The position numbers and the translations under genes were made by a program. The notes under the pieces were generated by a model. That model saw only the letters and a program-made list of their open reading frames with translations. It ran no database searches and was not told where the DNA came from. Shown piece by piece: positions 7,069 through 27,737 of a DNA stretch of 27,737 bases; position 1 is the first letter of the stretch; every line of letters begins with the position of its first letter. This stretch comes from a virus, in IMG/VR virus record IMGVR_UViG_3300031951_000072, positions 64,001-91,737 of that record; one strand, written 5' to 3'.

Positions 7069-7070
7069 AA

Positions 7071-11666: not shown

Positions 11667-12091
11667 AATTGATCTTTTAAATTTGTTGTTCTCAAAAACG
11701 TTGCTGATTGAGATATTGATTTAGTTTTTATTGCCGATAGCTCATCTTCTTTAGCTTGCAATTCAGATCTCAGGGTTTGTAATGTATTTGACAACTTAGA
11801 CATTTTATCTCGTAAGTCTAACGTTTCTTTTTCGACAAGCTCACTACAATCTTTATCTTGAATCACCGACACCTCTTTAATAATTTCCCTGTCTACATAT
11901 TTAATAACCTCCTTTTCTATTATCTCGATTTGTTTTTCAGGCTCTGATCCACCTAATAATCCATATTTTTTAATATCAAAACCTTGTTTTAAACATTGAA
12001 GTAAAAACTTTTCAATATCAGATATTGAATTTAAGTGACAATATTCCTGAATTGTAGAATACAATTCATTATGAATTGATAAGTTTTTCAT
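11663..12091 (-). CDS. hypothetical protein with C-terminal coiled coil, 142 aa
   Basis: I favour the ATG at 12091 (MKNLSIHNELYSTIQEYCHL). Another ATG two codons earlier is possible. Residues 1-50 form a small strand-helix-helix domain ending QGFDIKKYGLLGG, reminiscent of ribbon-helix-helix or phage small-domain proteins. From about 53 onward it is a long Glu/Lys-rich helix (EKQIEIIEKEVIKYVDREII; DKMSKLSNTLQTLRSELQAK). Its start overlaps the end of the SbcD-like nuclease gene by 23 bp, and its stop overlaps the next start. It may be an oligomeric accessory of the recombination operon. No function is known to me. Confidence 0.65.
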   Translation of the reverse strand: MKNLSIHNELYSTIQEYCHLNSISDIEKFLLQCLKQGFDIKKYGLLGGSEPEKQIEIIEKEVIKYVDREIIKEVSVIQDKDCSELVEKETLDLRDKMSKLSNTLQTLRSELQAKEDELSAIKTKSISQSATFLRTTNLKDQL

Positions 12092-12848: not shown

Positions 12849-13059
12849 TAGATTCTTGTGTGTCAAAAATATTAAATTCTTTATTTATGTGGTTGCATTG
12901 ATTACAACAATAAACGCTAATAGGTGCAATAGCATCTTGACTCTCCCCAAGCATAATCCTAGACACTTTTTTCAGTATAAAAGCTTCTTTGAAGAGTTTC
13001 GATCCGCATTTTTCGCAAGATATATTAGGTTGTGATCTTAAATCAATTTTTGAATCCAT
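12808..13059 (-). CDS. zinc-ribbon protein, 83 aa
   Basis: Two CxxC knuckles, CEKC (15-18) and CNQC (52-55), frame a central segment (LKKVSRIMLGESQDAIAPIS) and are followed by NHINKEFN. This is the arrangement of a small zinc-ribbon protein that I recall as a recurrent phage hypothetical (a ribbon with KVS and Pro-Ile-x-V/Y strands, then NxEF). It could bind DNA, RNA polymerase or a virion component. The last 25 residues (DTQESNDKENNSLLGLTP) are polar and overlap the SbcD-like gene. The leader is A-rich with no Shine-Dalgarno. It heads the recombination operon that continues to 8731. Confidence 0.7.
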   Translation of the reverse strand: MDSKIDLRSQPNISCEKCGSKLFKEAFILKKVSRIMLGESQDAIAPISVYCCNQCNHINKEFNIFDTQESNDKENNSLLGLTP

Positions 13060-13088
13060 AGTAATTTTAATTTATTTTTAGTTTATTG

Positions 13089-13946
13089 TCAAATTTTGTG
13101 TAATTTAAAATCGTATTGTAAAACACGATTTGTTATGTTTTGAGGAACCCTATACTCAGAATACATTGAGTCCTCATTCAAATGAACCACAATGCAACCT
13201 AATAATTTTGTATTTTCAAATTCAGTTCCTTCAAGCATTTTTAGAAGCAATTTCCCATATAATGGCAACTGTAAATAATAGTGCCCTAAAGCAGTATCGT
13301 CTATATCGTCAAAAGGTGGTTTTAACTTTTTAGTATATTTGTTAGGAACAAAATTCTTAGATTGATTCGTTTTCCAGTCTGTGATAGCAATTCCAATTTC
13401 ACCTCTAGATTTAGATTCAAATAACCATACTTTATCTGGTTGACCAACGTACCCCAATTCAGGATGACCTATTACCATCTCAGTATCCAATAATATACCA
13501 CCACGTTCTTTCATAAGTTTAAGATATTTGTTACCGGCGGATATCATTTTATCACTAGCTAATAACTGGTATCTATCACATTCAAAAACAGGTTCTCTAA
13601 GAGTTTTTCTTAAATTAAAAAGATCTACAGAAGTTTGCTCTAAAAAATAATGTACACGATTACCAAGATTGACAGCTTTATCTCCTGATTCTTTCCATTT
13701 AAGTAATAGTTCATTCTTTTTCTGTGTATTACCTTTTGATATTTGTTCAGAAATTTGTTCGGCATCAAACTCGTCATAAAATTTTTTAATAACTTTAGTA
13801 ACGGAAGGATAATTATCACGTATATTACCATTAGAATCTATCATATGGTAGATGTGTGTATCTTCAAAAAACTTTAGTGAAAGTTCCTCTCTTTTTGTTT
13901 CAAAAACTTTTCTAAGCTCATTAGCCGTGTCATTTATATTCATCAT
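13089..13946 (-). CDS. PD-(D/E)XK exonuclease, RecB/Cas4-like, 285 aa
   Basis: The motifs run in the order of RecB-family nucleases: helix with GNRVHYFLE (H99), TEMVIG (E156), GQPDKVWLF (D171), ITDWKTNQ (D190-x-K192) and QLPLY (Q226-x-x-x-Y230). The N-terminus (LSLKFFEDTHIYHMI; YPSVTKVIKKFYDEFD) resembles the usual leading region of such phage exonucleases. Residues 240-285 form a short closing domain. It probably degrades or resects DNA ends in recombination or host DNA breakdown. ATGATG begins immediately after the primase stop, so the first or second Met may be used. It is co-transcribed with primase. Confidence 0.85.
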   Translation of the reverse strand: MMNINDTANELRKVFETKREELSLKFFEDTHIYHMIDSNGNIRDNYPSVTKVIKKFYDEFDAEQISEQISKGNTQKKNELLLKWKESGDKAVNLGNRVHYFLEQTSVDLFNLRKTLREPVFECDRYQLLASDKMISAGNKYLKLMKERGGILLDTEMVIGHPELGYVGQPDKVWLFESKSRGEIGIAITDWKTNQSKNFVPNKYTKKLKPPFDDIDDTALGHYYLQLPLYGKLLLKMLEGTEFENTKLLGCIVVHLNEDSMYSEYRVPQNITNRVLQYDFKLHKI

Positions 13947-14861
13947 TTATTTTATTTCATAATAATATTCGTTTATTTTTCCCCTCAAATCGCAGACATC
14001 TTTATCTGCCGGTAGTTTTAAAACCCTAATCTTACCGTATAATACCCCCCCATTTAGCTCATGATATAGTTTTAGTGCGTTATCAAAAGCATCTCCATCG
14101 AGGCATATAGTAATATTACCCTTTGCCTTGTTATATAATGCTTCAAAAAGAATATTTGGTAAATGTTTACCTAACAAGGGAATGCTATTGTTTAGAAAAA
14201 AAGAGTCGAACACCCCCTCAACTAAAAAAATATCATCGGACCAATTAATAAGGTGTTCATTAAAAATAATCAACTCCTTTTCAGCCTCAGGATTTTTATA
14301 TTTTGCTCGTGATTTTGTGTTCCAAGATCTTCCAATATAATAATTTAATTCATTGTTACTATCGTATGACGGTACTATAATTCTACCTTTGTAATCTCCT
14401 TTGGCCGCAAAACCTATTTTATATTTGTTTATTATTTCTTCTGTAATACCTCTAGACTTCAAATAATTTATAGCCTCAAGATACGGAGGATACCGTTTAT
14501 TTGATTCACTTAATAACACGAAATCTTCAGGTAGTTTTATTTTCTTCCTAAAATGCGTAACTTGTTCCGAATCTTTCGGTCTTATTAAATTGTAAAGTTT
14601 TTTTAGCCTTTTATCACCATATAATTCAAATAGCTTACCCAGAGGACCATGCATTTTGCTATAATCCCCACAAGACCAGCAGTGAAATAAATGTTTAGAA
14701 TACGATATTTCTAGGTTGCCTTTCCCATCCCCAGATTCTAATCCTTTTAATTCTGAACAATTTGGACAATCATATGATATCTGGGATTTGTTGGGATAGT
14801 GAGCTTTATGCTGACCCAACAGATCATCCAACAAGGTTATTATTACATCATGCTCTTCCAT
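13947..14861 (-). CDS. DnaG-type DNA primase, 304 aa
   Basis: Start chosen at the ATG at 14861 (MEEHDVIITLLDDLLGQHKA). A start at 14900 would add a hydrophobic leader and lie across a candidate promoter. The zinc-binding domain has CPNC (32-35) and CWSC (61-64), preceded by His60. The catalytic half carries the GRIIVPS motif (159-165), equivalent to GRIIFPI in DnaG. Its TOPRIM core has LVEGVFD (E215), ICLDGDA (D255, D257) and a third acidic patch at DKDVCDL. It should lay down RNA primers at the phage replication fork. No helicase domain is fused, so a separate helicase is expected outside the window. The PD-(D/E)XK exonuclease follows directly. Confidence 0.85.
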   Translation of the reverse strand: MEEHDVIITLLDDLLGQHKAHYPNKSQISYDCPNCSELKGLESGDGKGNLEISYSKHLFHCWSCGDYSKMHGPLGKLFELYGDKRLKKLYNLIRPKDSEQVTHFRKKIKLPEDFVLLSESNKRYPPYLEAINYLKSRGITEEIINKYKIGFAAKGDYKGRIIVPSYDSNNELNYYIGRSWNTKSRAKYKNPEAEKELIIFNEHLINWSDDIFLVEGVFDSFFLNNSIPLLGKHLPNILFEALYNKAKGNITICLDGDAFDNALKLYHELNGGVLYGKIRVLKLPADKDVCDLRGKINEYYYEIK

Positions 14862-14865
14862 AGAA

Positions 14866-14873
14866 CAAAGGTA
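14866..14873 (-). promoter_or_regulatory. Bacteroidetes-type -7 box TACCTTTG, candidate promoter
   Basis: TACCTTTG in the context TTTATTACCTTTGTTCT sits 4 bp before the primase ATG at 14861. It matches the TAnnTTTG consensus and the copy near 8705. A -33 TTG at the expected distance is not evident. It lies in the 48-bp gap between the resolvase stop (14910) and the primase start, and would give an almost leaderless transcript. Confidence 0.35.
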
Positions 14874-14909
14874 ATAAATTAATTTCAATAAAAAAAACAA
14901 GAAATAAAT

Positions 14910-15512
14910 TTAACTCCAAATGCCTTCCTTTTTTAGGAACCCTAACGCACAACAATACGCATCAGTACTATCGAAATTTTCTTTTTTCAACGTATTATTT
15001 TTAGTAAATAACCATTGAATTTGCGGTTCACGTTTAGAGACTAATTCCCATATTACCATTTTTTTATCAACATCCTTTGGATACCCACCAAACAAGACAT
15101 TTTTACCCTTATCATTTTTCTGTAAAAGTTCAGGAAAGGCATTTTTCCTGGATTCATATGTTGTGATAAAATCAGGAACAATACCTAATACTTCATAAAC
15201 CTCTCTAAATATTAGAGTGTTAAACCTAAGTAGCGTACCTATTGTATATGCATTATTAGAGTTCAATAACGGCTCTTCAATAACAACATGTGTGATATTT
15301 AAACTAGAATACGCTTCTAACTTTGATCTAAACATATTAGATTTTAATATTAGTTCTTCCAGTTTATTTCCAACTTCAGGTTTTGGCCTGGGGGATACAT
15401 GCGTTAATTCTAATAATTCTTTAGTCGCAATATCAAATAATGCGATCCCAATAGTTTTAGTTGAAACGTCCAATCCTAGAATTTTTGGGTTATTTACAAT
15501 AGTTTCACTCAT
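14910..15512 (-). CDS. RuvC-like Holliday-junction resolvase (RNase H fold), 200 aa
   Basis: An RNase H-fold nuclease. ILGLDVSTKTIGIALFD (11-27) contains the first catalytic Asp (D15). THVVIEEPLL (74-83) contains the central acidic residue (E79/E80). DSTDAYCCALGFL (181-193) carries the C-terminal Asp pair (D181/D184) on a helix. This fits RuvC-type junction resolvases used by Bacteroidetes phages in place of T4 endonuclease VII. The central insertion (FITTYESRKNAFPELLQKND) probably packs at the dimer interface. It should resolve recombination and packaging intermediates. It follows a 51-bp AT-rich gap after the structural gene at 15564, and the primase begins 48 bp after its stop. Confidence 0.8.
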   Translation of the reverse strand: MSETIVNNPKILGLDVSTKTIGIALFDIATKELLELTHVSPRPKPEVGNKLEELILKSNMFRSKLEAYSSLNITHVVIEEPLLNSNNAYTIGTLLRFNTLIFREVYEVLGIVPDFITTYESRKNAFPELLQKNDKGKNVLFGGYPKDVDKKMVIWELVSKREPQIQWLFTKNNTLKKENFDSTDAYCCALGFLKKEGIWS

Positions 15513-15563
15513 ATAATAAATTATTGATACAATAATAGTTAAATATGTTGTAATTGTGAATTA

Positions 15564-17771
15564 TTAAAAATCCAATCTTACTGCAAATTGCTGAGTACCT
15601 TGCCTTTGTATAGGTGACTGCAACTTTGTTATTACAACCAAATCTTTATCGACATCAAACAAACCAACTTCAGTTATAAAACTATTTGTTCCTGGAACCC
15701 ATGTTGGGTTAGTTGTGTTTGTAAATTGTGTTGAAACTAAATTACATAAAAACCTCATTTCATAAATAGTTGCCTCAATATCTGTCTCGATATTTCCATA
15801 AAAAAAATACTCCTCACCAAAATTCAAAAGATCTTCTTGCCCTGATGGTTCTGGTAAAGGTAAATAATCTGCTAAATCATATGTATCGGCATTATTATAC
15901 ATATCGTAGCTAATAATGAATGTATTTGATGTCATAGCAGAAGGCGAAATTGCTCCATTGCAAGTATCACCGCTCACCCTATAAGTAAAATCAATTTTTT
16001 TCCAAGCTCCAGGCGAAGGTTGTGTTGTAGAACCAGAAACCAACTGAGCTAATACCATAAATTCATTCGCATTAAATCCACTAAAACAAGTGCAACCAGA
16101 ATTCATAAAAGGAAATTCCTCACCAAATTTAATAGCAACGTTTTGCCTGTCTTGATTACACTCATCACTAGGACCTTGCACTTTAGAATAATAATTACAA
16201 TGCAATGAGTCAGTAAATCCAAATGTTGAATTAAATCTATACGTAATATACATGTACTCTTGGTTATTACCTATAACACCAAAGTCATCAACGTCAGCAT
16301 CACACAAATTGGGGGCAACCAAAGACAAAGATGGTGCAGGTAATGTCCAGTTTCTATTTGATTTATACGATAAGGCTGCTACGATTTCGTCATCGTCAAA
16401 CACAATAGTTTTTATATCAGGAAATACTTTTCCTACTCTATTTGGTGTACCTAAGTTATTTACATGTGTATCCCACAAATGATAGTATCTTAGCCCTGGA
16501 TTATTCATATCATTATCCACAGCAGATTTCATATATTTGACTTGGAATAATCCCTGAACCCCAACATCCGGATCAACATAAAAAGTCTCCCCCATTTGAC
16601 CGGTAGATGACTTATGCCACATTAGCCAAGGTATTGAAACTTTAAAGTTTCTAGCAAAACCAGTCGTCTCTAAACTTTGCGGATCGAATGGTCTTAACGC
16701 AAATTTTTCACCATAAAAACTATCAATAGCATTGTTTGTATAATGAACTATAGCAATAGCCTTTTGCTCATTAGGATTTTGATAAACAGGTTTTTGATAT
16801 GAATTAAAATAATAAGTATCTGTTGTTTCAGCAGTTAATGCAGGTGAAACCCAAAATGTTTGACCGCTTAGTTCTTGATAGCCAAAATATTCTTTACTAC
16901 CAAGATATGTTCGTGAATTATATTTTGTGAAATCTTCATTCAAAGTAGAAACCACACCTGCCGGACTTACTGACCAAGGAATATTCATATTCCAAATTTT
17001 AACATCGGTGTTACCTAAATCACAAATAGATTCAAAGTTAATAACATCAGGTGGCCAGTATCCTTCAGGCGTATTGTAATCATATAACTCAGTCATACCT
17101 GAAGGGTATATTAATACTCTAGCCGTTCCACAACAACCCGACTCAGAATAATTAGGTATATTCCTATCCAAAGTTAGTGTATTACCTGATACTGATTGTA
17201 TTTTATAAGTTAAAATTGGAAAGTTTGCAGTTAACCCACTATTACATGAACCAACCCCATCATAATAAATCGTAGCAAAATGACCGGAAAATGTTACTCC
17301 TGTTGTTGTAGAACAAAAATCGTCTGTTAATGTTATAGTATTACCACTATTTGAACAAAGGTCCAAAATGTAATTAGAACTAATAGTGTATGCTGAAGAA
17401 GTTTTTGCCGTCCATGAATTAGCCGAACCACTAAAAAAGCCTCTTGGTGCTGCTGTGTTGAATACCGAATAAATTTGTGAGTCCTCAAACGCTAAACCAT
17501 ATGTATTGCCAGATGAACCAGATACATAATATGGATATTTTATATGCATTTTATTTGTCTCTGGATTCTGACTAGAATTTTGAGCATTATATGCGGCCTC
17601 TATTATATTATTGTTTGTTTGATTATAACCTGGTATCTGATTATATAGCACTTCACTATCCCCAATTTGGAAATAACGAATATCTAGTTTACCTTTAGAT
17701 AGCTTTAATCTACCGGTATCTGTAAACCTTGTATTTAATAGACCTGATGTATTTTTTATTATATATGCCAT
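15564..17771 (-). CDS. baseplate/tail-fibre type structural protein, 735 aa
   Basis: The N-terminus, NTSGLLNTRFTDTGRLKLSK then DIRYFQIGDSEV (7-41), has the TDTGRxKL...YFQIGDSE pattern of phage tail or baseplate proteins. The middle ~600 residues are Gly/Ser/Thr/Asn/Tyr-rich and beta-stranded, with scattered Cys and no enzyme motif. The C-terminus (ITEVGLFDVDKDLVVITKLQ) carries the IxEVGLFD motif typical of tail-fibre N-terminal and baseplate attachment domains. Together these suggest a component linking fibres to the baseplate. It is adjacent to the fibre genes (30-bp gap). The leader has an AT-rich box (GGATATTTATCGTT) and no Shine-Dalgarno. The exact T4 equivalent is not clear to me. Confidence 0.75.
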   Translation of the reverse strand: MAYIIKNTSGLLNTRFTDTGRLKLSKGKLDIRYFQIGDSEVLYNQIPGYNQTNNNIIEAAYNAQNSSQNPETNKMHIKYPYYVSGSSGNTYGLAFEDSQIYSVFNTAAPRGFFSGSANSWTAKTSSAYTISSNYILDLCSNSGNTITLTDDFCSTTTGVTFSGHFATIYYDGVGSCNSGLTANFPILTYKIQSVSGNTLTLDRNIPNYSESGCCGTARVLIYPSGMTELYDYNTPEGYWPPDVINFESICDLGNTDVKIWNMNIPWSVSPAGVVSTLNEDFTKYNSRTYLGSKEYFGYQELSGQTFWVSPALTAETTDTYYFNSYQKPVYQNPNEQKAIAIVHYTNNAIDSFYGEKFALRPFDPQSLETTGFARNFKVSIPWLMWHKSSTGQMGETFYVDPDVGVQGLFQVKYMKSAVDNDMNNPGLRYYHLWDTHVNNLGTPNRVGKVFPDIKTIVFDDDEIVAALSYKSNRNWTLPAPSLSLVAPNLCDADVDDFGVIGNNQEYMYITYRFNSTFGFTDSLHCNYYSKVQGPSDECNQDRQNVAIKFGEEFPFMNSGCTCFSGFNANEFMVLAQLVSGSTTQPSPGAWKKIDFTYRVSGDTCNGAISPSAMTSNTFIISYDMYNNADTYDLADYLPLPEPSGQEDLLNFGEEYFFYGNIETDIEATIYEMRFLCNLVSTQFTNTTNPTWVPGTNSFITEVGLFDVDKDLVVITKLQSPIQRQGTQQFAVRLDF

Positions 17772-17801: not shown

Positions 17802-19178
17802 TTAGCCACTAGGTGGGTTATTAGGGTCTTGCTGCGGTATTTGTTGAGGTATTTGCGTGGTACTCTCAATTATTGTTGTTGGTTGAATTATAACACAATC
17901 ATTATCCACCGTAATATTTGACAAATAAGCATTTATCCCAACCGTACCTCTTGTATAACATAATGGATCGAATGTGAAGCCAGGATCAATATCTATTGTA
18001 TATTCAATGTAACCAACAATATTTGATGTGTTATTACCTGTTATGGCTGTAGCAGAATATATATCATATGCAGCATATACATCATGTATCGGATTACATT
18101 GTGACGTAGATATATTGATGAATGGCCCACTATCTATTATTGACATTGTTTTTTGAATATTATTCACACTAATACTATGCCCTGTTGTTATAAAACTAAC
18201 TGTTCCAGGCTCAGAATAGGTTTTAGTGTATGTTACAACATAATCAAACTCAATATTAACACCTACAGGCAATAATGATGTATCAATAGTAAAGTCGATT
18301 TTGTATTTTGTTAAGTCATTTATAGTTGTACCAACTCTATCCGGGCCAGCAGTAACAACCATCGGTAATTCATAAGTTTTTGGTTGAGATGGTGATAGTG
18401 TAACGTCACAACTAGTTGTATTACCTGATGAATCTTTAGCATAGACTGTATATGCCCCAGAAAATAACCCATTAAATATCCCAACATTAATAAAATTAAC
18501 ATTATCTAAAGAATATTGCCAAGGAGGATTACCACCAGTTGCCACCGAAGTTATTGACCCATCATTTTCGTTTACACATGATGGACTATTAAAATTACAC
18601 TTTATACTATATGTCTTATCTGCACTTTGACATTGACCCTCTGTTGATTTACAACTAAAAAATTGAGCGTTATTACCAAAGACAAACCATCCTGTCAATG
18701 GGGTATCTTTCGGGTCTGAGCTTCGTATAATTAAGCTAGGATAATCAGGTATTGGGTCTAGCTCCCAATATTGATTTATAAAATTCCATCTGGCATAATA
18801 GTTTATCAGATTTATTGTCGTAAAATACTCAGGTTTACCATTATAAGAGTTGCCGTTATAACAAAATGTATATCTTTTAAGCGTATTTGTTCTTGAATTT
18901 GTAATTGATAAACAAAAACAAGGATATGTTTTAATTGGATCTGAAATGTTTATTGTATTATACAAGCCACATAAATTGTTATATAATAATATTTTTTTAC
19001 TTGTATCTGGGACTACAACTAAAACCCCTGTTATTAACTCCGAAAAAGTTAATCCTGTAGCAAATTCTGTTGTTAAATATTTAGTAGCCAAACTACTAGA
19101 TGATATATTATCATAATACACCGAAAAAGTTCCGTCAGGAGTTCCTGCTGTTATTGTTATATTAAATATCCTATTCAT
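17802..19178 (-). CDS. tail-fibre/adhesin protein with SprB-like repeat, 458 aa
   Basis: Start at the ATG at 19178, one base after the previous stop. A longer frame to 19298 only mirrors the neighbour's PT repeats as His/Gln/Leu junk. An N-terminal beta domain begins MNRIFNITITAGTPDGTFSV. Residues 190-266 match the SprB repeat: NENDGSITSVATGGNPPWQY, YSLDNVNF, GLFSGAYTVYAKDSSGN, DVTLSPSQP. A further beta-rich domain (YVVTYTKTYSEPG) and a Pro/Gln/Thr tail (QIPQQIPQQDPNNPP) follow. SprB repeats are typical of the Flavobacterium gliding adhesin SprB and of Bacteroidetes surface proteins. No signal peptide, as expected of a virion fibre. The likely role is host-surface binding. Confidence 0.75.
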   Translation of the reverse strand: MNRIFNITITAGTPDGTFSVYYDNISSSSLATKYLTTEFATGLTFSELITGVLVVVPDTSKKILLYNNLCGLYNTINISDPIKTYPCFCLSITNSRTNTLKRYTFCYNGNSYNGKPEYFTTINLINYYARWNFINQYWELDPIPDYPSLIIRSSDPKDTPLTGWFVFGNNAQFFSCKSTEGQCQSADKTYSIKCNFNSPSCVNENDGSITSVATGGNPPWQYSLDNVNFINVGIFNGLFSGAYTVYAKDSSGNTTSCDVTLSPSQPKTYELPMVVTAGPDRVGTTINDLTKYKIDFTIDTSLLPVGVNIEFDYVVTYTKTYSEPGTVSFITTGHSISVNNIQKTMSIIDSGPFINISTSQCNPIHDVYAAYDIYSATAITGNNTSNIVGYIEYTIDIDPGFTFDPLCYTRGTVGINAYLSNITVDNDCVIIQPTTIIESTTQIPQQIPQQDPNNPPSG

Positions 19179-19179
19179 A

Positions 19180-20094
19180 TTATGGTGTCGGAGTTGGCGT
19201 AGGTGTTGGTGTTGATGTCGGAGTAGGACTAACTGTAGGTGTTGGTGTTGATGTTGGTGTCGGGCTAGGAGATATTGTTGGTATTGAACAAGTGCCAATA
19301 TTTAAAACAGACCCCAAAGAATTTGTTTGTATCCAATAAATACCGTTTGAATAATACCCTTCAACTACAGGCATTGTTAATTCATAATCATAATAAATGA
19401 TATCCCCACTTTGCATTTCAAATATTTGTGAAACTGTTGACCAGTATTCTTTTGTTTCACCAGAACATGATGACAAGATAGTTGTTCCGCTACCTAATAA
19501 CAAATAGTTAAGTTCACTAACAGAGCCAGAAAAAATACAATCTAATGGTTCTATTAATTCGCAGCTAACGGTTGTTATAAAGTCATAATATTTATCAGTA
19601 ATTGTGGCATTATATGTACCTGCACTCAAGTTATATATTGTTGTACCAGTAGCTGTGGTATTATTAGGTAATGACCATACAACATAATATGGTGCTGTAC
19701 CCCCAGTTATTGCTAAAGATAATATTCCACTATTAGGACTATTAACGTCAGGATTTATTGCAATACACTGAGCACCTAATGGAAATAATGTTATTGGTTC
19801 ACATTCGTTATATGAAACCCCTGGTATCGGAGGTGGAGGTAATGGCGTTGGCTCTGGCCCTGGACATGGCAAGCATCCTGAATATGAACATGTCATACCA
19901 GATCCAGCATCAACCAAAGGTATATCATCATTTAGAATGGTAAAATATACCTTAATATCTGGCTCTTCAATAACTTTGTAACAAAAATTAATTGGCTTGC
20001 TGATTAATAAATTACCAACAGTGTATTTTGTTCCTGATTTTATTTTATATATTTGATTATCACAGCATCCTGTAACATAGCTACTTAAATTCAT
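19180..20094 (-). CDS. fibre protein with SprB-like repeat, ending in a Pro-Thr tail, 304 aa
   Basis: Start at the ATG at 20094 (MNLSSYVTGCCDNQIYKIKS). A start at 20130 would run into the upstream gene. After a Cys-rich N-terminal domain there is a Pro linker (PGPEPTPLPPPPIPG). An SprB-like repeat spans about 106-183: NSPNSGILSLAITGGTAPYY, YNLSAGTYNATITDKYY, CELIEP. A second beta domain (YWSTVSQIFEMQSGDIIYYD) follows. The last ~30 residues are Pro/Thr/Ser repeats (STPTPTVSPTPT...) and the stop comes inside them. It looks like one fibre module whose linker is terminal, with the next module encoded one base downstream. Probably a receptor-binding or spacer component. Confidence 0.7.
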   Translation of the reverse strand: MNLSSYVTGCCDNQIYKIKSGTKYTVGNLLISKPINFCYKVIEEPDIKVYFTILNDDIPLVDAGSGMTCSYSGCLPCPGPEPTPLPPPPIPGVSYNECEPITLFPLGAQCIAINPDVNSPNSGILSLAITGGTAPYYVVWSLPNNTTATGTTIYNLSAGTYNATITDKYYDFITTVSCELIEPLDCIFSGSVSELNYLLLGSGTTILSSCSGETKEYWSTVSQIFEMQSGDIIYYDYELTMPVVEGYYSNGIYWIQTNSLGSVLNIGTCSIPTISPSPTPTSTPTPTVSPTPTSTPTPTPTPTP

Positions 20095-20324: not shown

Positions 20325-22115
20325 TTAACTTACACATGTTCCCCAAACTATTGTCACAACAGTAGATCCTATTAATATTGTTGACCCACTAGACGGTATG
20401 GATGTTCCATTTATTTTTACATTATATAATGTGTATCTAATCGGAGTGCCTCCTCCTCCTGAATTCCAATAACCTGTTTTAGTGTCTGGAGTTAAAGATA
20501 CTATCCCAGAATTACCAGTGTTAAATGTTACTAGACTGCTCAGATTATTATATTGAGCACCAGCAACACCTGATGTACAACCTATATCATCATAACCATC
20601 ACCAAAAACTGTTGAAACTGTTAAGTTACCTGTTATAGGTGTATTTAGTTCCGCAACAAATATTGGGAACGATGAACTAGATATATTGTCCATTGTTAAA
20701 TATAATGTTGGGATAACGTCTGTCGGTGTTGGTGTTGGTGTTGAAGTCGGTGTATTCGTAGGAGTGCTTGTTGGTGCCGGAGCAGGTGTCGAAGTTGGGC
20801 CTGTTGCCGTTGGAGATAATGTAGGTGTTGGTGATATCGTGCTTGTTGGTGTTATTGTCGGTGTAGGTGTTGGCGTTGGAGTTATTGAACAGTTATCACA
20901 ACCTGGACCTAAAACCCATATTATGTCATTGAGGATAGCATTTGACGAATTACTTGATAATGACTCGTATGTTACACATTTTGAAACGCCATTTATTACA
21001 CAATTAAATGTAACTCCAGTCTCAATTGATAATCCTGAAAATACCAATGAGTCAACAACATAGTATGTGTCTCCTGATATACAATCAACTAGTTTTTTTG
21101 TTTTAGTATCTGTAAATGTATCATCAACTAAAGTATATGTTACATCACCACTAAAGCAAACGCTATAACCCGTTATTGGTGTTGCCGTAGGTGTCGCACT
21201 AGGTGTTGGTGTAGGTAATGTTGTAGCACTTAAAGAAATACTAGATAACGAACAATCAGATGTCGGCGTTGGTGTCGGTGTTGGTGTTGGAGTAGATGTC
21301 GGTGTAGGGCTTATTGTTGCTGTTGGTGTTGGTGTTATTATCTCACAATTAAAATACGCATTAAAATCAAAATCGTCGCATATTGCAGGTGTTGGCGTTG
21401 GTGTTACAACACAAACTCCTTCTGTTAATTCAGATAATGAAATGTCTGGGCAATTTTCGTAACAAGGAACTTTACCAAATAAAAAACAATCTCCACCCAA
21501 ACTATCAGATAAACACCATTTATACCCTGTATTATATAAATACCCTATTTGATCTGTACCCCCAGTATAATACGCATATCCATTATAGTTACCAACTTTA
21601 TTATAGGTCCCATCATTATCAAAATAATTATTAGTATCTAAGCAATATTGGTTAATCGGACATTCAGGCCCTATATACGTAGGTGTCGGTGTTGGTGATG
21701 GTGTAGGTGTAGGCGTTTGTGTTGGTGTAGGTGTAGGGCATGTTATGCAGCCTTCACAACTAACTTGCTGGACAAATATACCTGTTGTCCCATCATATAC
21801 TGTTCCTCCACCTAAATTATCTATATAGGTGCAACCAGTATATCCTGAAACAGTAACGTGATAAAAGTTAGAAACTAATTGTGCCGGAATACCACTAACT
21901 GTAAATGTTATGCCACTATCACAACAATCCGTAAAATTGTATTGATAACTAGCACAGGCTGGACTACAACTCATGTCAGTTAATGTTATTCCAGAATATG
22001 AGTAATCGTCATTTAAACAAATTGGTGTACCAATAGTAGATCCGCTTTGGAAATAACCGCAACAATCTGTATATTGCCAGGAGCTAGAATTAGTTACACC
22101 AGATAGACAAGCCAT
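20325..22115 (-). CDS. modular tail fibre with Cys-rich domains and Pro-Thr linkers, 596 aa
   Basis: Begins MACLSGVTNSSSWQYTDCCG. Small Cys- and aromatic-rich beta domains alternate with at least five linkers of (PT)n/(TPTPTS) type (for example around residues 125-146, 240-250, 260-285, 305-320 and 415-465). The C-terminal domain (about 470-596: LYLTMDNISSSSFPIFVAEL ... GDGYDDIGCTSG) has no linker. Repeated paired Cys suggest disulfides or metal sites in each module. No signal peptide, as expected for a virion fibre. PT linkers probably act as rigid extended spacers and are possible O-glycosylation targets. It is divergent from the plus-strand glycosyltransferase island at 22232. Confidence 0.75.
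   Translation of the reverse strand: MACLSGVTNSSSWQYTDCCGYFQSGSTIGTPICLNDDYSYSGITLTDMSCSPACASYQYNFTDCCDSGITFTVSGIPAQLVSNFYHVTVSGYTGCTYIDNLGGGTVYDGTTGIFVQQVSCEGCITCPTPTPTQTPTPTPSPTPTPTYIGPECPINQYCLDTNNYFDNDGTYNKVGNYNGYAYYTGGTDQIGYLYNTGYKWCLSDSLGGDCFLFGKVPCYENCPDISLSELTEGVCVVTPTPTPAICDDFDFNAYFNCEIITPTPTATISPTPTSTPTPTPTPTPTSDCSLSSISLSATTLPTPTPSATPTATPITGYSVCFSGDVTYTLVDDTFTDTKTKKLVDCISGDTYYVVDSLVFSGLSIETGVTFNCVINGVSKCVTYESLSSNSSNAILNDIIWVLGPGCDNCSITPTPTPTPTITPTSTISPTPTLSPTATGPTSTPAPAPTSTPTNTPTSTPTPTPTDVIPTLYLTMDNISSSSFPIFVAELNTPITGNLTVSTVFGDGYDDIGCTSGVAGAQYNNLSSLVTFNTGNSGIVSLTPDTKTGYWNSGGGGTPIRYTLYNVKINGTSIPSSGSTILIGSTVVTIVWGTCVS
20722..20883 (-). repeat. Pro-Thr linker, longest 6-bp-type tandem repeat tract
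   Basis: A degenerate repeat of about 6 bp (GGTGTT/GGTGTC-like on the plus strand) encodes alternating Pro/Thr/Ser/Ala in the 596-aa fibre. Shorter tracts of the same kind lie at about 21178-21222, 21260-21337, 21390-21407 and 21677-21739 in the same gene, and at about 19183-19284 in the 304-aa fibre. Slippage by whole units would keep the frame and vary linker length. Confidence 0.8.
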
Positions 22116-22231
22116 GAATAATGTTTTATACTATAAATAACTAGAATTTAATTTTTTTGATAAAATCAATGAAAAATAATAAGCTAATTTATTTAATTTT
22201 GAATTAAAAAACATTATTTTTTTAACAAAAA
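22116..22231. promoter_or_regulatory. divergent intergenic region between fibre gene and glycosyltransferase island
   Basis: A 116-bp, very AT-rich spacer between divergently transcribed genes, so it should hold promoters for both. A plus-strand TATAAATA box (22132-22139) and a TAATTTTG box matching TAnnTTTG (22194-22201) face the glycosyltransferase genes. Neither has a well-placed upstream element. No Shine-Dalgarno precedes the ATG at 22232; the leader ends TTAACAAAAA. Confidence 0.4.
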
Positions 22232-23173
22232 ATGAAAAAAGTATTCCTAGATTTATCCGAAGCAAAAGGCTTAGGTGATACGCTATCAGCAACCCCTGTT
22301 ATTAGGAAATTAAAAGAATCATATGGTTCCAAAATATATGTCATAACGAATTATCCTGAGTTATTCCATAATAACAGAAATGTTGAAAAAGCTTATTATG
22401 TAAATGCAATTAATATAGAAAATGTAAAATCAACACAGATATATCATTCATCATTCAATAATGTTGGTAAGAAAAATGAGTTTGGTGTTGAATTTAAAAG
22501 TAATGTATGTGATATAAGACAATATCATGCTATGACGCTTGGCTTTCAATTATCTGAAGATGATTTGTATACAGAATATGAACCCGATGAATATATACCA
22601 ATTGATGGACTACCAGAAAAATTCGTTTTAATCCATCCCGCAGAAAATTGGCCCTCAAGAACCTGGGATAAAGACAAATGGGCCGATCTTGTTAATTTAT
22701 TATGCGGAAATAATATAAATGTTGTTATTACAGGTAAAAACACCGAGGAATATGGATTTTTTCACATTACAAAAAAAATATTTAGCATAAAACAAGACTT
22801 GGTTTTAGATTTATCAAACAAAAGTAATATATCGCAAACCTGGCACTTAATTGATAAATCTTCTTGTTTTGTAACAATGGATTCAGGACTGCTGCATTTA
22901 GCAGGAACAACAGATGCCGAAATAATTCAACTCGGAAGCTCCATAAATAACGAATTTAGAGCCCCATATAGATATATGTCACAAGATTACAAATACCATT
23001 ATATCTCAGGTCCTTGTGGAATATTTTGTGCTTCAGACATGAAATATGGTGTTAGAGAATGGGGTACAATACATGGTGTTCCCCCATTAATTGGCTGCTT
23101 AGAAAATAAACCTGAATTTGAATGCCACCCATCGGTAATTGATGTTTACGAAACAATTATGAAAATCATATGA
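22232..23173 (+). CDS. GT9-type (heptosyltransferase-like) glycosyltransferase, 313 aa
   Basis: A GT-B glycosyltransferase resembling the ADP-heptose transferase family (GT9). The N-terminal domain starts DLSEAKGLGDTLSATPVIRK (7-26), matching the GxGDxxxxTPxxxxL motif. The second domain has IHPAENWPSRTWDKDKW (134-150), VVITG (164-168), and MDSGLLHLAG (216-225), the usual donor-site segment, followed by IIQLGSS. The C-terminal part carries four Cys (262, 266, 289, 298), including CGIFC and FECHPS, similar to the Cys cluster in the neighbouring enzyme. It should transfer a sugar to an acceptor not identifiable here. Its stop overlaps the next start (ATGA), so the genes are co-transcribed. Confidence 0.85.
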   Translation: MKKVFLDLSEAKGLGDTLSATPVIRKLKESYGSKIYVITNYPELFHNNRNVEKAYYVNAINIENVKSTQIYHSSFNNVGKKNEFGVEFKSNVCDIRQYHAMTLGFQLSEDDLYTEYEPDEYIPIDGLPEKFVLIHPAENWPSRTWDKDKWADLVNLLCGNNINVVITGKNTEEYGFFHITKKIFSIKQDLVLDLSNKSNISQTWHLIDKSSCFVTMDSGLLHLAGTTDAEIIQLGSSINNEFRAPYRYMSQDYKYHYISGPCGIFCASDMKYGVREWGTIHGVPPLIGCLENKPEFECHPSVIDVYETIMKII

Positions 23174-26100
23174 ATAATAAACTTAAATTTGATAAAGCGT
23201 ATATTTTGTATGCAACCGAAAATTATTTTCCAGTAATAGAATGTACTATAACTAGTATTAGGAAGTTCTCTAAATTACCGATAATAGTTTATTCTATAAA
23301 TAAAAAATTTGAAACATCTAATAATGACGTATATTGTGAAGTAATGTATAATATACATTTAAGGCATAAAAATAATGATGATTTATACATTAAAGGATTG
23401 GATGAATCTAATTTTTATATTAAAAGAGAAAACCCTCACATATATTCAATATTAATCCAAAAACCATTTATAACAATACATGCCTTAGAAAATTATGCTA
23501 AAACAGTATTCTTTATTGATGCCGACTCAGTTATATTCAACAATATTGACATTTTTTTTGATTTATATCCAGAAAATGAAAATATTCCTTATTTTACCAA
23601 AGGCATTTATGATTTTTTAGCATATAACGAAATTGGTCATGAAGACGGTTTAGAAAATACCGTTGAACACAAATTATGCGAATTATTGAATATTGATCAA
23701 TCATTTAGGCTAAATACAAGTTATAGGCAATCTGGTTATTATATATCAGGCCAGAAGAGTATACCATTTTTAAATGAATGGTATATTACTTGCGGAATGG
23801 ATATAATATTTAGGAACCATGCAATTTATGCCCCTTATAACGAAGAAACCGTATTAAACTGCTTATTATGGAAATATAAAATAGATAAGGGTTTGCCTTT
23901 AATATATGTTAACGGATCGTTAGATAGAATTGATATTATCAATGATAACAAAAATTATTTAGGTATTGAAAACGAAATACAAGAATGGTTTAAACTACCT
24001 CCCCAGAAAAATTCTGTGTATTTTATACATGGTGAAAAAAGACCAAATATTATTATGGATATGATAAATAAAATTGATGAAATAAAAAACCGAGATAGCG
24101 GAAAAAAAACAAATATATTGTATTTAGCCCCTCATTTATCAACAGGTGGTATGCCAGCTTTTCTACTAAAAAGAATTGAGGCCATAAAAAAATACTATAA
24201 TGACGAATTTAATATTTTTGTTGTTGAATATACAAATTATGGCGATGCATTTTCAGTGCAAAAAGATATGATAAAAACTATGATCGATTCTGATAAGTTT
24301 TATTCCTTAGGATATTTAGGTGAACCTATTGATAATAAATACAAGTTATTGGATATTATTAAATATAATAATATAGACGTAGTACATATTGATGAACCAA
24401 TTGAAGGCTTTGACTCATTTAATCCTGTGCCAAGAGATTTAATTAACCTACTATATTCTGAGGACAGATCTTGGAATATTGTCGAAACATGCCATAATGT
24501 TGTATTTAATCCTAAACAATCAAAAGAATTTCATCCTGACGCATATGCTTTATGCTCAAAATATCATAAAAATGTAACTTTTGCTGATGAAAAAGAAATT
24601 TTAGAGTTAATTGAATATCCGATTGAAAATTTCAAAAAAACAAAAGCTGAAAAATTAAAAGCGCAATTAAGTTTAAATTTAGATCCTGAAGTAAGACACG
24701 TATTAAATGTCGGTATTTGGACACCAGGTAAAAATCAAAAAGAATTCGTAGAAATTGCAAAATTGTTTGAAAACAATAACAATTTACATTTTCATGCTAT
24801 TGGTTCCTTAGCACCTAATTTTGAAGACTATTGGGGCCCAATTGTTGAAAATTTACCTAAGAACATAACTGTATGGGGTGAAAGAAATGACGTTCATGCA
24901 TTTATGGCAGCTTCTGATGTTTTAATATTTAACTCAACATTTGAGTGTAACCCAATAACTCTAAAAGAAGCTATATCTTTTGGATTGAAAATATTAGCAA
25001 GAGATCTAAATGTTTATTTAGACACATACTCACAATATATTATACCAATAGATGATAATATTTTAGACACAAAAAATAAATTAGAAAAAATTGTAAATTC
25101 AAAATTATTTTCATATACAGCAACTAATGAACAGAATTCTTTTGCGGAAAAACATGTTAATTTATATCTAAATTTAAAAAACAAAGAATCCAAATATAAA
25201 TTAGATATAGCTCAATCATTTGTTGGTCAACCTTATTTTGAAATAAAAGGAAAGGATAATAACACATATCACGTAGAATTTATTGATGAAAATAACACAC
25301 TTGTTTATTCTGAAAATATCACCACAAATACTTGGATAAGACTTAACCGAAAATATTATACAAAATGGAAAACTAATGTATCTATTGATGATAAAATTAT
25401 ATATTCAAAAACATTATCATTAAAAAATGAAAGAGTTTATATCGCATTCGATAGTAACTCGTTAGGCGATACAATTGCTTGGATGCCATATTGCTTAGAA
25501 TTTAAGAAAAAACACAATTGTTATTTGATTGTATCAACATTTTGGAATAAATTATTTGTTGATGTTTACCCTGAAATTGAGTTCGTAACTCCTGGTGATA
25601 TTGTTTATGACTTATACGCGATGTATAACATAGGATATTATTATGATAATAATAGTGCCCCAGAAAACCCTCAAATAATACCCTTGCAAAAGGTGGCAAC
25701 AAACATTTTAGGATTAAATTACCATGAAATTTCTCCAAGGATTAAATTTAATCCGGGGAAAAGACCTATTGAATCTAGATACGTTACCATAGCAACAGAT
25801 TCTACAGCCCAACTAAAATATTGGAATTATCCTAGAGGTTGGGAAATACTTTGTGAGTATCTTCAAAATTGCGGATATAAAGTTATCTCTGTCTCAAAAG
25901 AAGCGTCTAAAATTAATGGGGTTATAAACTTATCCGATACATCAATAGAAAATACTATGAATGTGATTCATCATAGTGAGTTTTTAATCGGTTTATCTAG
26001 CGGTCTATCATGGCTTGCTTGGGCATTAGATAAACATGTTGTTATGATCGCTAATTTCACGGATGAGGACCAAGAATTTAAATCAAATTGTACTAGAATT

Positions 26101-26280
26101 ATTAATAAATCAGTATGTAACAGTTGTTGGAATAACCCATTATTTAAATTCGACAAATCAGATTGGAACTGGTGTCCAGAACATAAAAATACTCCTAGGC
26201 AATTTGAATGCCATAAATCTATAACGCCAGATATGGTGTTTCAAAGAATAAAAAAAGACATATTTAAGTATGAAAATTGA
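23170..26280 (+). CDS. three-module glycosyltransferase with TibC-like autotransporter heptosyltransferase domain, 1036 aa
   Basis: Three enzyme modules in one chain. Residues 1-305 look like a GT8/GT-A nucleotide-sugar transferase, with a DxD motif in FFIDADSVIF (D117-A-D119). Residues 313-660 are a GT-B, GT4-like module: LAPHLSTGGMPAFLLKR, GIWTPGKNQ (515-523), and FECNPITLKEAI with the E-x7-E pair (E592, E600). Residues 690-1034 resemble the autotransporter O-heptosyltransferase (TibC/BAHT) family: a beta N-domain (EFIDENNTLVYSENI), FDSNSLGDTIAW (760-771), and a C-terminal four-Cys finger (C983, C986, C1002, C1014) with CNSCWNNP, WCPEHKNTPRQFECHKSITP. The architecture suggests successive sugars added to a protein acceptor. 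The next gene overlaps its end by 11 bp. The acceptor is inferred, not shown. Confidence 0.8.
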   Translation: MNNKLKFDKAYILYATENYFPVIECTITSIRKFSKLPIIVYSINKKFETSNNDVYCEVMYNIHLRHKNNDDLYIKGLDESNFYIKRENPHIYSILIQKPFITIHALENYAKTVFFIDADSVIFNNIDIFFDLYPENENIPYFTKGIYDFLAYNEIGHEDGLENTVEHKLCELLNIDQSFRLNTSYRQSGYYISGQKSIPFLNEWYITCGMDIIFRNHAIYAPYNEETVLNCLLWKYKIDKGLPLIYVNGSLDRIDIINDNKNYLGIENEIQEWFKLPPQKNSVYFIHGEKRPNIIMDMINKIDEIKNRDSGKKTNILYLAPHLSTGGMPAFLLKRIEAIKKYYNDEFNIFVVEYTNYGDAFSVQKDMIKTMIDSDKFYSLGYLGEPIDNKYKLLDIIKYNNIDVVHIDEPIEGFDSFNPVPRDLINLLYSEDRSWNIVETCHNVVFNPKQSKEFHPDAYALCSKYHKNVTFADEKEILELIEYPIENFKKTKAEKLKAQLSLNLDPEVRHVLNVGIWTPGKNQKEFVEIAKLFENNNNLHFHAIGSLAPNFEDYWGPIVENLPKNITVWGERNDVHAFMAASDVLIFNSTFECNPITLKEAISFGLKILARDLNVYLDTYSQYIIPIDDNILDTKNKLEKIVNSKLFSYTATNEQNSFAEKHVNLYLNLKNKESKYKLDIAQSFVGQPYFEIKGKDNNTYHVEFIDENNTLVYSENITTNTWIRLNRKYYTKWKTNVSIDDKIIYSKTLSLKNERVYIAFDSNSLGDTIAWMPYCLEFKKKHNCYLIVSTFWNKLFVDVYPEIEFVTPGDIVYDLYAMYNIGYYYDNNSAPENPQIIPLQKVATNILGLNYHEISPRIKFNPGKRPIESRYVTIATDSTAQLKYWNYPRGWEILCEYLQNCGYKVISVSKEASKINGVINLSDTSIENTMNVIHHSEFLIGLSSGLSWLAWALDKHVVMIANFTDEDQEFKSNCTRIINKSVCNSCWNNPLFKFDKSDWNWCPEHKNTPRQFECHKSITPDMVFQRIKKDIFKYEN

Positions 26281-26635
26281 GGTATCAATTGGAGAAATTG
26301 TAGATAAGTTATCTATTTTACAAATAAAAAAAGAAAATATATCCGATGTTAATAAATTGTATAACGTAAATAATGAATTTAGTTATTTACATGATATTGT
26401 ATTCAATGAGCTTAAAATCAGTGATGACGATTATTATAATCTTTTAATTATTAATAAAAGCTTGTGGGATATTGAAGATCATATACGAAAAAAAGAAATC
26501 GATAAATCATTCGATGATGAGTTTATCGATTTAGCTAGAAAAGTTTATATTACAAACGACAAAAGATCCGTTATAAAAAAAGAAATAAATATAAAATATA
26601 ACTCATTATTTGTTGAAGAAAAATCTTACAAATAA
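26270..26635 (+). CDS. DUF6165-like protein of the glycosyltransferase island, 121 aa
   Basis: Begins MKIEVSIGEIVDKLSILQIK. It matches by eye a family of small helical proteins (DUF6165) with MKIExSxGEIxDKLxILxIK near the start, LWxIEDxIRxKE in the middle (64-77 region), and ELARxVYxTNDxRxxIKKxIN near the end. Here the equivalents are SLWDIEDHIRKKE and DLARKVYITNDKRSVIKKEI. The family is often found beside glycosyltransferase genes in polysaccharide or glycoprotein loci, and its biochemical role is not known to me. It overlaps the big enzyme's stop by 11 bp and is followed by a strong terminator, closing the island. Confidence 0.8.
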   Translation: MKIEVSIGEIVDKLSILQIKKENISDVNKLYNVNNEFSYLHDIVFNELKISDDDYYNLLIINKSLWDIEDHIRKKEIDKSFDDEFIDLARKVYITNDKRSVIKKEINIKYNSLFVEEKSYK

Positions 26636-26673
26636 AAAAAAATGTGGCAGAATTAACTGCCACATTTTTTTTA
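26634..26673. terminator. bidirectional intrinsic terminator
   Basis: A stem of ATGTGGCAG / CTGCCACAT with a six-base loop (AATTAA), flanked by A8-9 on the left and T8 on the right, so each strand sees a GC-containing hairpin followed by a T-run. It serves both convergent genes: the DUF6165-like gene ending at 26635 and the collagen-like fibre ending at 26671. The clearest terminator in the window. Confidence 0.95.
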
Positions 26674-27737
26674 TGATAATATAGTGAAAACTAATTGTGG
26701 ATGGAAATATAATGTATATTCACTTAAAGCTACGCCAATTATCTGTACTACGTCATCTTTGGCTGATGGCGGTGTTGTAGTTATATTTCCTGCTGTAGTA
26801 CTTAAATACCAAATAGTATTAGGACCACCATATGCTCCAACACCTGAAGACACTTTTGTTACAAACCCGTGCATCAAAAAGTTTCCTGCTGCACCACTAC
26901 TTAAGCTTGTTTCAAGACATAAAGCTATTGCAGGAGCTGTAGAGCCCGTATCTGCGTCAGCTTTTTTAAATTGACCAAGTGTTGCGTCAATATATACAAC
27001 ATCACCAAACGCTAATGATTCACCAGCAGTAAATCTGGTTATCATACCCCAACCCGCAGAGCCTGTTGTTCCTGTTGAAATTGGGTATATTGAGGTTATA
27101 CCTGTAAGTGCTGGTGATGTTCCCGAAGTGCCAGATGTTCCACTCGAACCTGATGATCCGCTTGAGCCAGAAGACCCTGATGAACCACTTGAACCTGAAG
27201 AGCCAGAAGATCCTGATGTACCAGAAGATCCCGACCTACCGGATGTACCTGATGTTCCACTCGAACCTGATGATCCGCTTGAGCCAGAAGACCCTGATGA
27301 ACCACTTGAACCTGAAGAGCCAGAAGATCCTGATGTACCAGAAGATCCTGACCTACCGGATGTGCCTGATGTACCACTCGAACCTGATGATCCGCTTGAG
27401 CCAGAAGACCCTGATGAACCACTTGAACCTGAAGAGCCAGAAGATCCTGATGTACCAGAAGATCCTGACCTACCGGATGTGCCAGAAGTACCAGAAGAGC
27501 CTGACGAACCGCTCGAACCAGATGAGCCAGAAGAGCCTGATGACCCGCTTGAACCACTCGAACCAGATGAGCCAGATGTACCAGAAGAGCCTGATGACCC
27601 GCTTGAACCACTCGAACCAGATGAGCCAGATGTGCCAGAAGAGCCTGATGACCCGCTTGAACCACTCGAACCAGATGAGCCAGATGTACCAGAAGAGCCT
27701 GATGACCCGCTTGAACCGCTCGAACCAGATGAGCCAG
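26671..27737 (-). CDS. collagen-like fibre protein, C-terminal part (5' end beyond the window)
   Basis: The frame ending at 26671 is open through 27737 and continues off the window, so at least 355 residues are present and the start is not. The N-terminal visible part is a long Gly-x-y collagen-like tract with x,y almost always Ser or Thr (GSS, GTS, one GRS per 117 bp). After TSPALTGITSIYPISTGTTG there is a C-terminal head domain of about 130 residues: FTAGESLAFGDVVYIDATLG, MHGFVTKVSSG, WYLSTTAGNITTTPPSAKDD, VVQIIGVALSEYTLYFHPQL. That domain has the pattern common at the tips of phage fibres and decoration proteins. It probably trimerises. It may be a fibre or spike for host contact. The reverse-complement frame that looks like HQALLAHL... 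is an artefact of the repeats. Confidence 0.8.
   Translation of the reverse strand, partial: GSSGSSGSSGSSGSSGTSGSSGSSGSSGSSGSSGTSGSSGSSGSSGSSGSSGTSGSSGSSGSSGSSGSSGSSGSSGSSGSSGTSGTSGRSGSSGTSGSSGSSGSSGSSGSSGSSGSSGSSGTSGTSGRSGSSGTSGSSGSSGSSGSSGSSGSSGSSGSSGTSGTSGRSGSSGTSGSSGSSGSSGSSGSSGSSGSSGSSGTSGTSGTSPALTGITSIYPISTGTTGSAGWGMITRFTAGESLAFGDVVYIDATLGQFKKADADTGSTAPAIALCLETSLSSGAAGNFLMHGFVTKVSSGVGAYGGPNTIWYLSTTAGNITTTPPSAKDDVVQIIGVALSEYTLYFHPQLVFTILS
27134..27484 (-). repeat. three 117-bp tandem repeats in the collagen-like tract
   Basis: Nearly identical 117-bp blocks start at about 27141, 27258 and 27375 (anchored on CACTCGAACC), each coding 39 residues of Gly-x-y triplets. They differ at only a few positions, so the expansion is recent or homogenised by recombination. 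Confidence 0.9.
27541..27737 (-). repeat. 54-bp tandem repeats in the collagen-like tract
   Basis: Units starting at 27541, 27595, 27649 and 27703 (anchored on TGACCCGCTTGA) give about 3.6 copies of a 54-bp (18-aa, six triplets) unit, running off the window. Both periods are multiples of nine, so unit gain or loss keeps the Gly-x-y register. Confidence 0.9.

Follow-up and report, generated by a model that had tools for sequence, protein, structure and literature searches.

What does a phage modify when it carries glycosyltransferase genes between two genes for serine/threonine (S/T)-rich proteins? The question is raised by the final 27,737 bases (positions 64001 to 91737; hereafter, the window, meaning the whole stretch of DNA that was analyzed) of the 91,737-bp virus record IMGVR_UViG_3300031951_000072, which also code for a phage-type primase, an exonuclease, SbcC- and SbcD-like proteins, and a sigma factor. 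The island consists of three plus-strand open reading frames (ORFs) of 313, 1036, and 121 amino acids (aa), which overlap by 4 nt and 11 nt. An earlier reading of the letters alone (the sequence-only reading) had proposed that these enzymes glycosylate either the phage's own fibers or proteins of the host surface. Our analysis argues for the former: the island probably equips the phage to O-glycosylate its own collagen-like (fiber) proteins, which are rich in Ser/Thr; we infer both the acceptor and the donor.

Central to this interpretation is the 1036-aa, three-module product of gene 2 (positions 23170 to 26280, plus strand), whose third module (approximately residues 685 to 1036; positions 25222 to 26280, plus strand) is predicted to be a BAHT/TibC-like O-glycosyltransferase that includes a β-barrel. 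Residues 698 to 1029 score 307.2 bits against NCBIfam model TIGR04414 (autotransporter O-heptosyltransferase; cutoff, 200 bits), the module alone scores 309.3 bits, and it matches the sequence of TibC in the PDB with an E value of 1.3e-54. All 37 of the 37 phage module 3 sequences scanned reach E values of ≤1e-58 against the same model. Microcystis phage Mel-JY01 contains a region that shares 41% identity with module 3. Structure prediction for the 1036-aa enzyme agrees, placing module 3 on TibC (VIA Z 35.3; root mean square deviation [rmsd], 2.3; 352 residues) and module 2 on GT4 enzymes; the modeled module 3 is shown to be a close structural relative of TibC in which the catalytic base and the iron finger are kept. 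The AlphaFold2 model of the full-length protein derives from an alignment of 27 sequences (predicted local distance difference test score [pLDDT], 83; predicted template-modeling score [pTM], 0.46), such that the placement of its domains is unreliable. The kinship with TibC/BAHT enzymes suggested by the sequence-only reading therefore applies to module 3 and fails for the 313-aa product of gene 1, which scores 25.9 bits against TIGR04414, below its cutoff of 200.

The TibC residues involved in catalysis and iron binding, taken from passages of PMC4358343, have equivalents throughout the window's module 3: Asp767 (TibC Asp110), Thr879 (Thr226), Lys883 (Lys230), Trp948 (Trp305), and the cysteines Cys983, Cys986, Cys1002, and Cys1014 of the iron finger (TibC positions 339, 342, 358, and 370), which are predicted to bind iron. 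Among 80 dereplicated phage modules, Asp110 and Lys230 are each retained in all 80, Thr226 in 77, Trp305 in 79, and each cysteine in 78; both the fold and the catalytic site of module 3 are thus those of a BAHT. Two other positions depart from TibC. Arg286, which according to the same passages (PMC4358343) contacts adenine and is highly conserved and needed, is occupied in the 80 phage modules by Thr (50, with Thr929 in the window), Val (14), Arg (7), or other residues (9). The position of Pro300 holds Ser in 60 and Gly in 19 (Ser943 in the window), Ser being the state found in AAH, which is reported in excerpts of that source (PMC4358343) to accept both heptose isomers. Because Arg286 is mostly replaced, the donor nucleotide of module 3 cannot be assumed to be that of ADP-heptose.

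Module 3 is specifically associated with collagen-like proteins built mostly of G-(T/S)-S triplets. The analysis used 80 of the 163 relatives detected; the module 3 set comprises 82 loci, which collapse into 41 clusters at 90% identity. An S/T collagen ORF (at least 15 triplets) lies in the fetched flanks of 22 of the 41 clusters, versus 0 of 120 GC-matched random loci (P = 3.5e-16; median GC content, 0.33 in both sets), with the control loci being shorter on average (120 loci totaling 1052 kb, versus 41 totaling 737 kb). All 22 of these collagens are at least half S/T at the X and Y positions and none is Pro-rich. In the collagens of the 41 clusters, X is Thr in 62% of triplets and Ser in 27%, and Y is Ser in 77% and Thr in 7%. 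Among clusters flanked by 8 kb or more on each side, and at a looser run length, S/T collagen is present in 14 of 19 and either S/T collagen or runs of Pro-Thr (PT) in 16 of 19. Relatives with the island and no fibers of the expected kinds were rarely seen: three loci in which an initial scan had detected no collagen (L012, L044, and L046) belong to records that all carry S/T collagen, whereas two related records (G104 and G108) have, in the fetched parts, only PT genes and a mixed collagen low in S/T.

The co-occurrence with GSS- and PT-containing fibers anticipated by the sequence-only reading is thus strong for the collagens and weaker for PT, runs of at least 8 of which occur in 9 of the 41 clusters and 3 of the 120 control loci (P = 2.6e-4). 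Those figures, together with two of the 19 long-flank clusters (L045 and L072) whose fetched stretch contains PT genes and lacks S/T collagen, are what could be said for the main acceptors being the PT-rich linkers of the neighboring minus-strand proteins rather than the collagen-like repeat. Yet the PT association is far weaker than that of S/T collagen, and in two Methylobacter genomes (see below) the neighbor proteins are collagen-like, with no PT repeat seen by eye, which makes it highly improbable that the linkers are the principal acceptors. PT-rich proteins are perhaps additional acceptors of the phage's O-glycosylation.

The same association emerges when records are chosen by collagen type. 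Each pattern scan returned at least 120 stretches, with 80 listed, and 50 records per pattern were then searched. Of the 50 viral records selected for (G-S/T-S/T)8 arrays, 21 contain module 3, compared with 1 of the 50 selected for (G-P-X)8 arrays, 0 of the 50 selected for (G-K/N/D/E-X)8 arrays, and 2 of 50 random AT-rich records (Fisher test, 21/50 versus 1/100, P = 5e-11). Within the random set, three of the 50 records have S/T arrays, and both records with module 3 (probably one phage) are among those three; in the sole G-P-X positive (L365), an S/T-rich collagen likewise lies 1,051 bp away from module 3. As for set membership, L163, which fits both the S/T and G-P-X patterns, was not in the search, and L148 and L261 were left out of the charged set (L261 is in the G-P-X set and has no module 3). 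The 50 S/T records counted include seven whose fetched locus lacks an ORF with a run of at least 12 triplets; one of these seven (L130) has module 3. The records G120 and G125 agree exactly in their scores and array counts and could represent a single phage.

Glycosyltransferases of family GT2 show no like enrichment (14/50 versus 8/50), and on this basis an explanation by glycosyltransferases in general was rejected. The result also bears on the view that the enzymes glycosylate the host surface (O-antigen, capsule, or a host adhesin) and thereby block superinfection. Phage glycosyltransferases are mainly ascribed to DNA protection or host surface change, as passages from three sources indicate (PMC12619734, PMC7029224, PMC10202952): those near the tail fibers of pelagimyophages are held likely to modify the host O-chain (in part of PMC7029224), and cell wall change or DNA protection has been suggested for Nanopelagicales phages, which also carry collagen-like genes (in part of PMC10202952). 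Moreover, gene 1 belongs to GT9, the family of lipopolysaccharide (LPS) heptosyltransferases. Countering these precedents, TibC and AAH act on proteins (passages of PMC4358343), and the association that we observe is with Ser/Thr collagen rather than collagen generally and is not shared by GT2. Modification of the host surface, the other half of the original proposal, is accordingly made less likely, and we consider it an unlikely role for the island.

Record length could in principle have produced the pattern: all 50 S/T records are at least 20 kb, versus 41 of the G-P-X, 42 of the random, and 42 of the charged records. Because the S/T records are longer than the control records, we applied a length-stratified permutation, in which 0 of 20,000 trials reach 21 (maximum, 18). 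This test, along with the 0/120 GC-matched random loci, the random records, and the charged-collagen control (0/50), speaks against simple hitch-hiking, in which a single exchangeable adhesion region in the large phages of certain hosts holds both S/T collagens and BAHT-type enzymes and the two have no enzyme-substrate relation. So do the recurrence of the two-gene pair in bacteria and the 38 to 77% identity of each module to its nearest other positive, which argues against one recent lineage although not against older co-inheritance. In favor of hitch-hiking, positives are commoner among longer records (3/10, 4/19, 8/13, and 6/8 across increasing length bins), and in a lineage control drawn from SbcC homologues (14 loci), 7 of 10 records searched, copies of the window's phage included, carry module 3 and three do not, so that the module is common in the lineage. 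The loci of this control were too few and too close, and it was replaced by a random 17-mer control. On balance, an association devoid of any enzyme-substrate relation seems very improbable.

Proximity points in the same direction as the counts. Sequence was fetched up to 10 kb to either side of module 3, and in it 14 of the 21 array-selected positives have a collagen ORF (at least 15 triplets); 13 of these are of the S/T type, at distances of 0 to 4.3 kb, and one is of the Pro type (L359). Even in very large records, the gap is short: 4.3 kb in a record of 548 kb, 2.9 kb in one of 299 kb, and 1.3 kb in one of 249 kb. The closeness of module 3 and S/T collagen exceeds what a merely shared genome would give, although genes for fibers and glycosyltransferases may sit together in a single variable region.

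Several observations weigh against glycosylation of the phage's own collagen-like proteins as the role of the island. No module 3 was seen in 29 of the 50 S/T-array records (many of which are fragments), and L091/G004, which fits both patterns, was counted as S/T only; placed in both sets, it would bring the G-P-X count to 2/51. The related records G104 and G108 have module 3, PT genes, and, in the fetched parts, a mixed collagen of 165 triplets with 18% S/T and 22% Pro. Arrays can also lie far from module 3, as in G006 (approximately 40 kb) and G009 (63 kb). The triplets of S/T arrays in module 3-negative records have much the same composition as those in positive ones, giving no sign of selection by the enzyme, and composition by itself cannot reveal modification. 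The arginine reported to be needed in TibC is present in just 7 of 80 phage modules, and DUF6165, the family of gene 3, is present in just 13 of the 41 module 3 cluster loci, many of which are truncated. Finally, adhesion regions may be co-inherited whole. The mixed collagen of G104 and G108 is itself cut by the contig end at the ends of those records.

The pairing of a BAHT-type enzyme with a collagen-like protein recurs, as an independent case, in bacteria. A single scan of 84,980 prokaryote genomes yielded 19 loci. In both Methylobacter luteus and Methylobacter sp. BlB1, a BAHT gene that stands alone (311.5 and 309.5 bits, respectively) starts approximately 40 bp after the gene for a collagen-like protein with an apparent signal peptide and G-T-S/A/N repeats, in which Thr occupies X in 20/22 and 14/19 triplets; these proteins have weak scores on models of collagen-like adhesins. 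The BAHT gene of Burkholderia sp. L27 (575 bits) adjoins an apparent classical strand-loop-strand autotransporter. At the position of Arg286, the Burkholderia enzyme has Arg and the M. luteus enzyme has Ile. Five contigs from metagenome-assembled genomes (MAGs) (L590, L592, L594, L600, and L607) read as phage-like and have G-S/T-S/T proteins beside module 3. Four of them (L590, L594, L600, and L607) are probable phage contigs binned into prokaryote MAGs of the GTDB-based collection.

Among phages, the modules occur in several combinations. The polypeptide carrying module 3 is ordered module 1–module 2–module 3 in 22 of the 41 clusters, has neither of the other modules in 10, is ordered module 2–module 3 in 7, and is ordered module 2–module 1–module 3–DUF6165 in 2, with modules 1 and 2 sometimes being separate genes. 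In L602, L606, L072, and the records G047, G104, and G108, module 3 genes or stretches are duplicated side by side, the second copy being shorter or more divergent where scored. Tandem arrangements of another kind were noticed by eye: in L084 (positions 1 to 8328; record positions 40001 to 48328), nine consecutive minus-strand ORFs of approximately 260 to 320 aa with similar starts form an apparent paralogous array, and L083 (positions 11138 to 17634) has a second set of similar-sized ORFs on the plus strand.

Module 1 of gene 2 (approximately residues 1 to 310; positions 23170 to 24099, plus strand) is probably a GT-A, GT8-like enzyme: its DxD motif (Asp117 and Asp119) is invariant in 16 sequences, PF01501 (GT8) is matched by 2 of these 16 (best E value, 0.0016) and not by the window's own sequence, and there are weak matches to Skp1-galactosyltransferase/glycogenin (E values, 0.076 to 0.8). 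The list from the whole-enzyme fold search is filled by modules 2 and 3, and the absence of module 1 from it says nothing. Module 2 (approximately residues 313 to 680; positions 24106 to 25209, plus strand), a GT4-type GT-B enzyme, matches PF00534/PF13692, and its model aligns to HepE (VIA Z 28.3; rmsd, 3.3; 327 residues), with many comparable GT4 rows. Gene 1 (positions 22232 to 23173, plus strand) scores 55 bits against PF01075 (GT9), above the gathering cutoff of 22, and its matches to the NCBIfam models for LPS heptosyltransferases I, II, and III, RfaC, RfaF, and RfaQ do not exceed 49.1 bits, below all cutoffs (134.6 to 569). These scores mark it as a divergent, heptosyltransferase-like GT9; four C-terminal cysteines (Cys262, Cys266, Cys289, and Cys298) are invariant in seven aligned phage sequences.

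Gene 3 (positions 26270 to 26635, plus strand) matches PF19662 (DUF6165) at 32.8 bits (cutoff, 27), as do 30 of 30 members of its alignment, and is modeled by AlphaFold2 as a four-helix bundle (pLDDT, 90.9) for which a fold search returned no PDB match at an E value of ≤0.001. PHROGs gave nothing for genes 1 and 2 and one weak match for gene 3 (phrog_32614; E value, 0.0096). DUF6165 genes travel with such glycosyltransferase modules: in a reverse search, at least one of the four modules is present in 69 of 80 loci, and module 3 (>80 bits) in 56 (80 loci were used of 113 found; they were not dereplicated, and three are copies of the window's own). Gene 3 is likely a partner of these modules. 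Six loci (L516, L519, L531, L540, L579, and L585) have DUF6165 and none of the four modules in the fetched stretch.

The layout given by the sequence-only reading, with three plus-strand genes, overlapping junctions, an AT-rich spacer on the left, and a bidirectional terminator on the right, is confirmed by the ORFs, the sequence, and RNA folding. The A+T-rich divergent spacer (positions 22116 to 22231), read from the sequence, presumably holds promoters; over the whole scanned region, promoter-like matches number 59, a modest excess over the shuffle mean of 46.3 (standard deviation, 6.1). The inverted repeat at positions 26635 to 26672, between the island and the collagen-like gene, pairs over 16 bp, includes tracts of A and T, and looks like a terminator in either direction (−20.9 kcal/mol; z score, −7.74; 0 of 200 shuffles as good). 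The inverted-repeat scan in total found 2 sites versus 3.3 expected, which is no excess.

To its right, the collagen-like gene (positions 26671 to 27735, minus strand), the proposed acceptor, is open from position 26671 to the contig end, where its 5′ end is lost. The 354 aa available contain 69 G-X-Y triplets, G-(S/T/R)-S in form, followed by a C-terminal domain; X and Y are 98% S+T, with GSS making up 74%, GTS 22%, and GRS 4% of the triplets. Two separate minus-strand genes here (124 aa and 189 aa) were considered and rejected, as the true frame is one open ORF. The window's own record and three IMG/VR contigs (L001 to L003) with an identical 1036-aa protein all stop inside the GSS repeat, and the rest of the collagen gene is thus missing from each of the four assemblies. 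On the left, the 596-aa protein with PT linkers (positions 20325 to 22115, minus strand; longest PT run, 11) is a possible second acceptor. Both flanking minus-strand genes are Ser/Thr-rich, as had been noted from the PT linkers of one and the GSS/GTS triplets of the other; neither received a structural name from Pfam or PHROGs, and the "fiber" label for both is putative. Among the eight window proteins scanned with Pfam there was no autotransporter, and no further search was made. A 498-aa ORF near the PT-rich genes (window positions 17802 to 19298, minus strand) has a SprB repeat (PF13573, 30.4 bits; cutoff, 28), a repeat known from Flavobacterium surface proteins.

If the island acts on the collagen-like protein, module 3, acting in the cytoplasm of the host before the fiber folds or as it does so, would add the first sugar to Ser/Thr of the G-(T/S)-S triplets. 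The GT4 and GT8-like modules and the GT9 enzyme might then extend or cap this sugar, with the DUF6165 protein serving as an adaptor or oligomerization partner that aids assembly. The donor would be a nucleotide sugar of host origin, since gmhA and rfaE domain II, sought as signs of an ADP-heptose supply in 31 large module 3 records, had no match over the cutoff: gmhA has a below-cutoff match in one (G032, 180 bits versus a cutoff of 209, which is near enough that it may be real), and rfaE domain II in five (best, 99.8 bits; cutoff, 181.5). Neither was found in the window's own record, and a full phage-coded ADP-heptose pathway is unsupported in those 31 records, which are incomplete. As for the glycan, one can speculate that it stabilizes a proline-free triple helix, shields the fiber, or tunes receptor binding or adsorption; in Riftia collagen, threonine that carries sugar is described as a contributor to stability (in part of PMC10141479).

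Phage module 3 resembles the BAHT enzymes (TibC of enterotoxigenic Escherichia coli and AAH; TIGR04414; PDB 4RAP/4RB4) across the whole domain in sequence and fold, in the β-barrel, in the catalytic Asp and Thr226/Lys230/Trp305, and in the four-cysteine iron finger. Unlike TibC and AAH, it is phage encoded, is fused to GT8-like and GT4 modules, often occurs with DUF6165, and is associated with collagen-like triplets rather than strand-loop-strand autotransporters, and the window's enzyme has Thr for Arg286 and Ser for Pro300 of TibC. Other features of TibC/AAH are a dodecameric ring and the transfer of heptose from ADP-heptose to a Ser residue of an autotransporter. Collagen-like triplets with O-glycans also occur in BclA of Bacillus, although in a bacterial exosporium and through other glycosyltransferases. 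A viral parallel is Mimivirus L230, an enzyme that both hydroxylates Lys and attaches glucose in a collagen-like protein of viral origin (in part of PMC9614988). There, as proposed here, a virus enzyme adds sugar to a collagen-like protein of that same virus (in vitro, at least), but L230 is an unrelated enzyme of a eukaryotic virus with hydroxylysine as the acceptor, instead of a BAHT-type enzyme and Ser/Thr. Mycobacteriophages likewise have virion proteins with glycans, on capsid and tail-tube subunits (Freeman 2023, as cited in PMC12619734), in an account whose excerpts do not name a BAHT or collagen link (PMC12619734). Among the papers listed by literature searches, none was seen to describe BAHT enzymes in phages or glycosylated phage collagens.

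More tentatively, these islands may represent an unrecognized and widespread class of phage "fiber-glycan writers," in which BAHT-type initiators switched their acceptor from autotransporter repeats to G-(T/S)-S triplets and probably, with the loss of Arg286, their donor nucleotide, and were joined, in varying order, to interchangeable extending glycosyltransferases and DUF6165, such that module swapping would vary the glycan coats of long proline-free collagen fibers; the same pairing of enzyme and collagen is found in Methylobacter. This broader scheme is a possibility in which we place less than even confidence. For many uncultured phages and two methanotroph genomes, the analysis yields a concrete, control-backed enzyme-substrate prediction, namely, that the Thr/Ser residues of G-(T/S)-S triplets carry sugar. 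Should this prove correct, it would help to account for the stability of proline-free phage collagens, give DUF6165 a role, and provide an enzyme source for making O-glycosylated collagen, and the BAHT family would extend from virulence autotransporters to collagen-like proteins.

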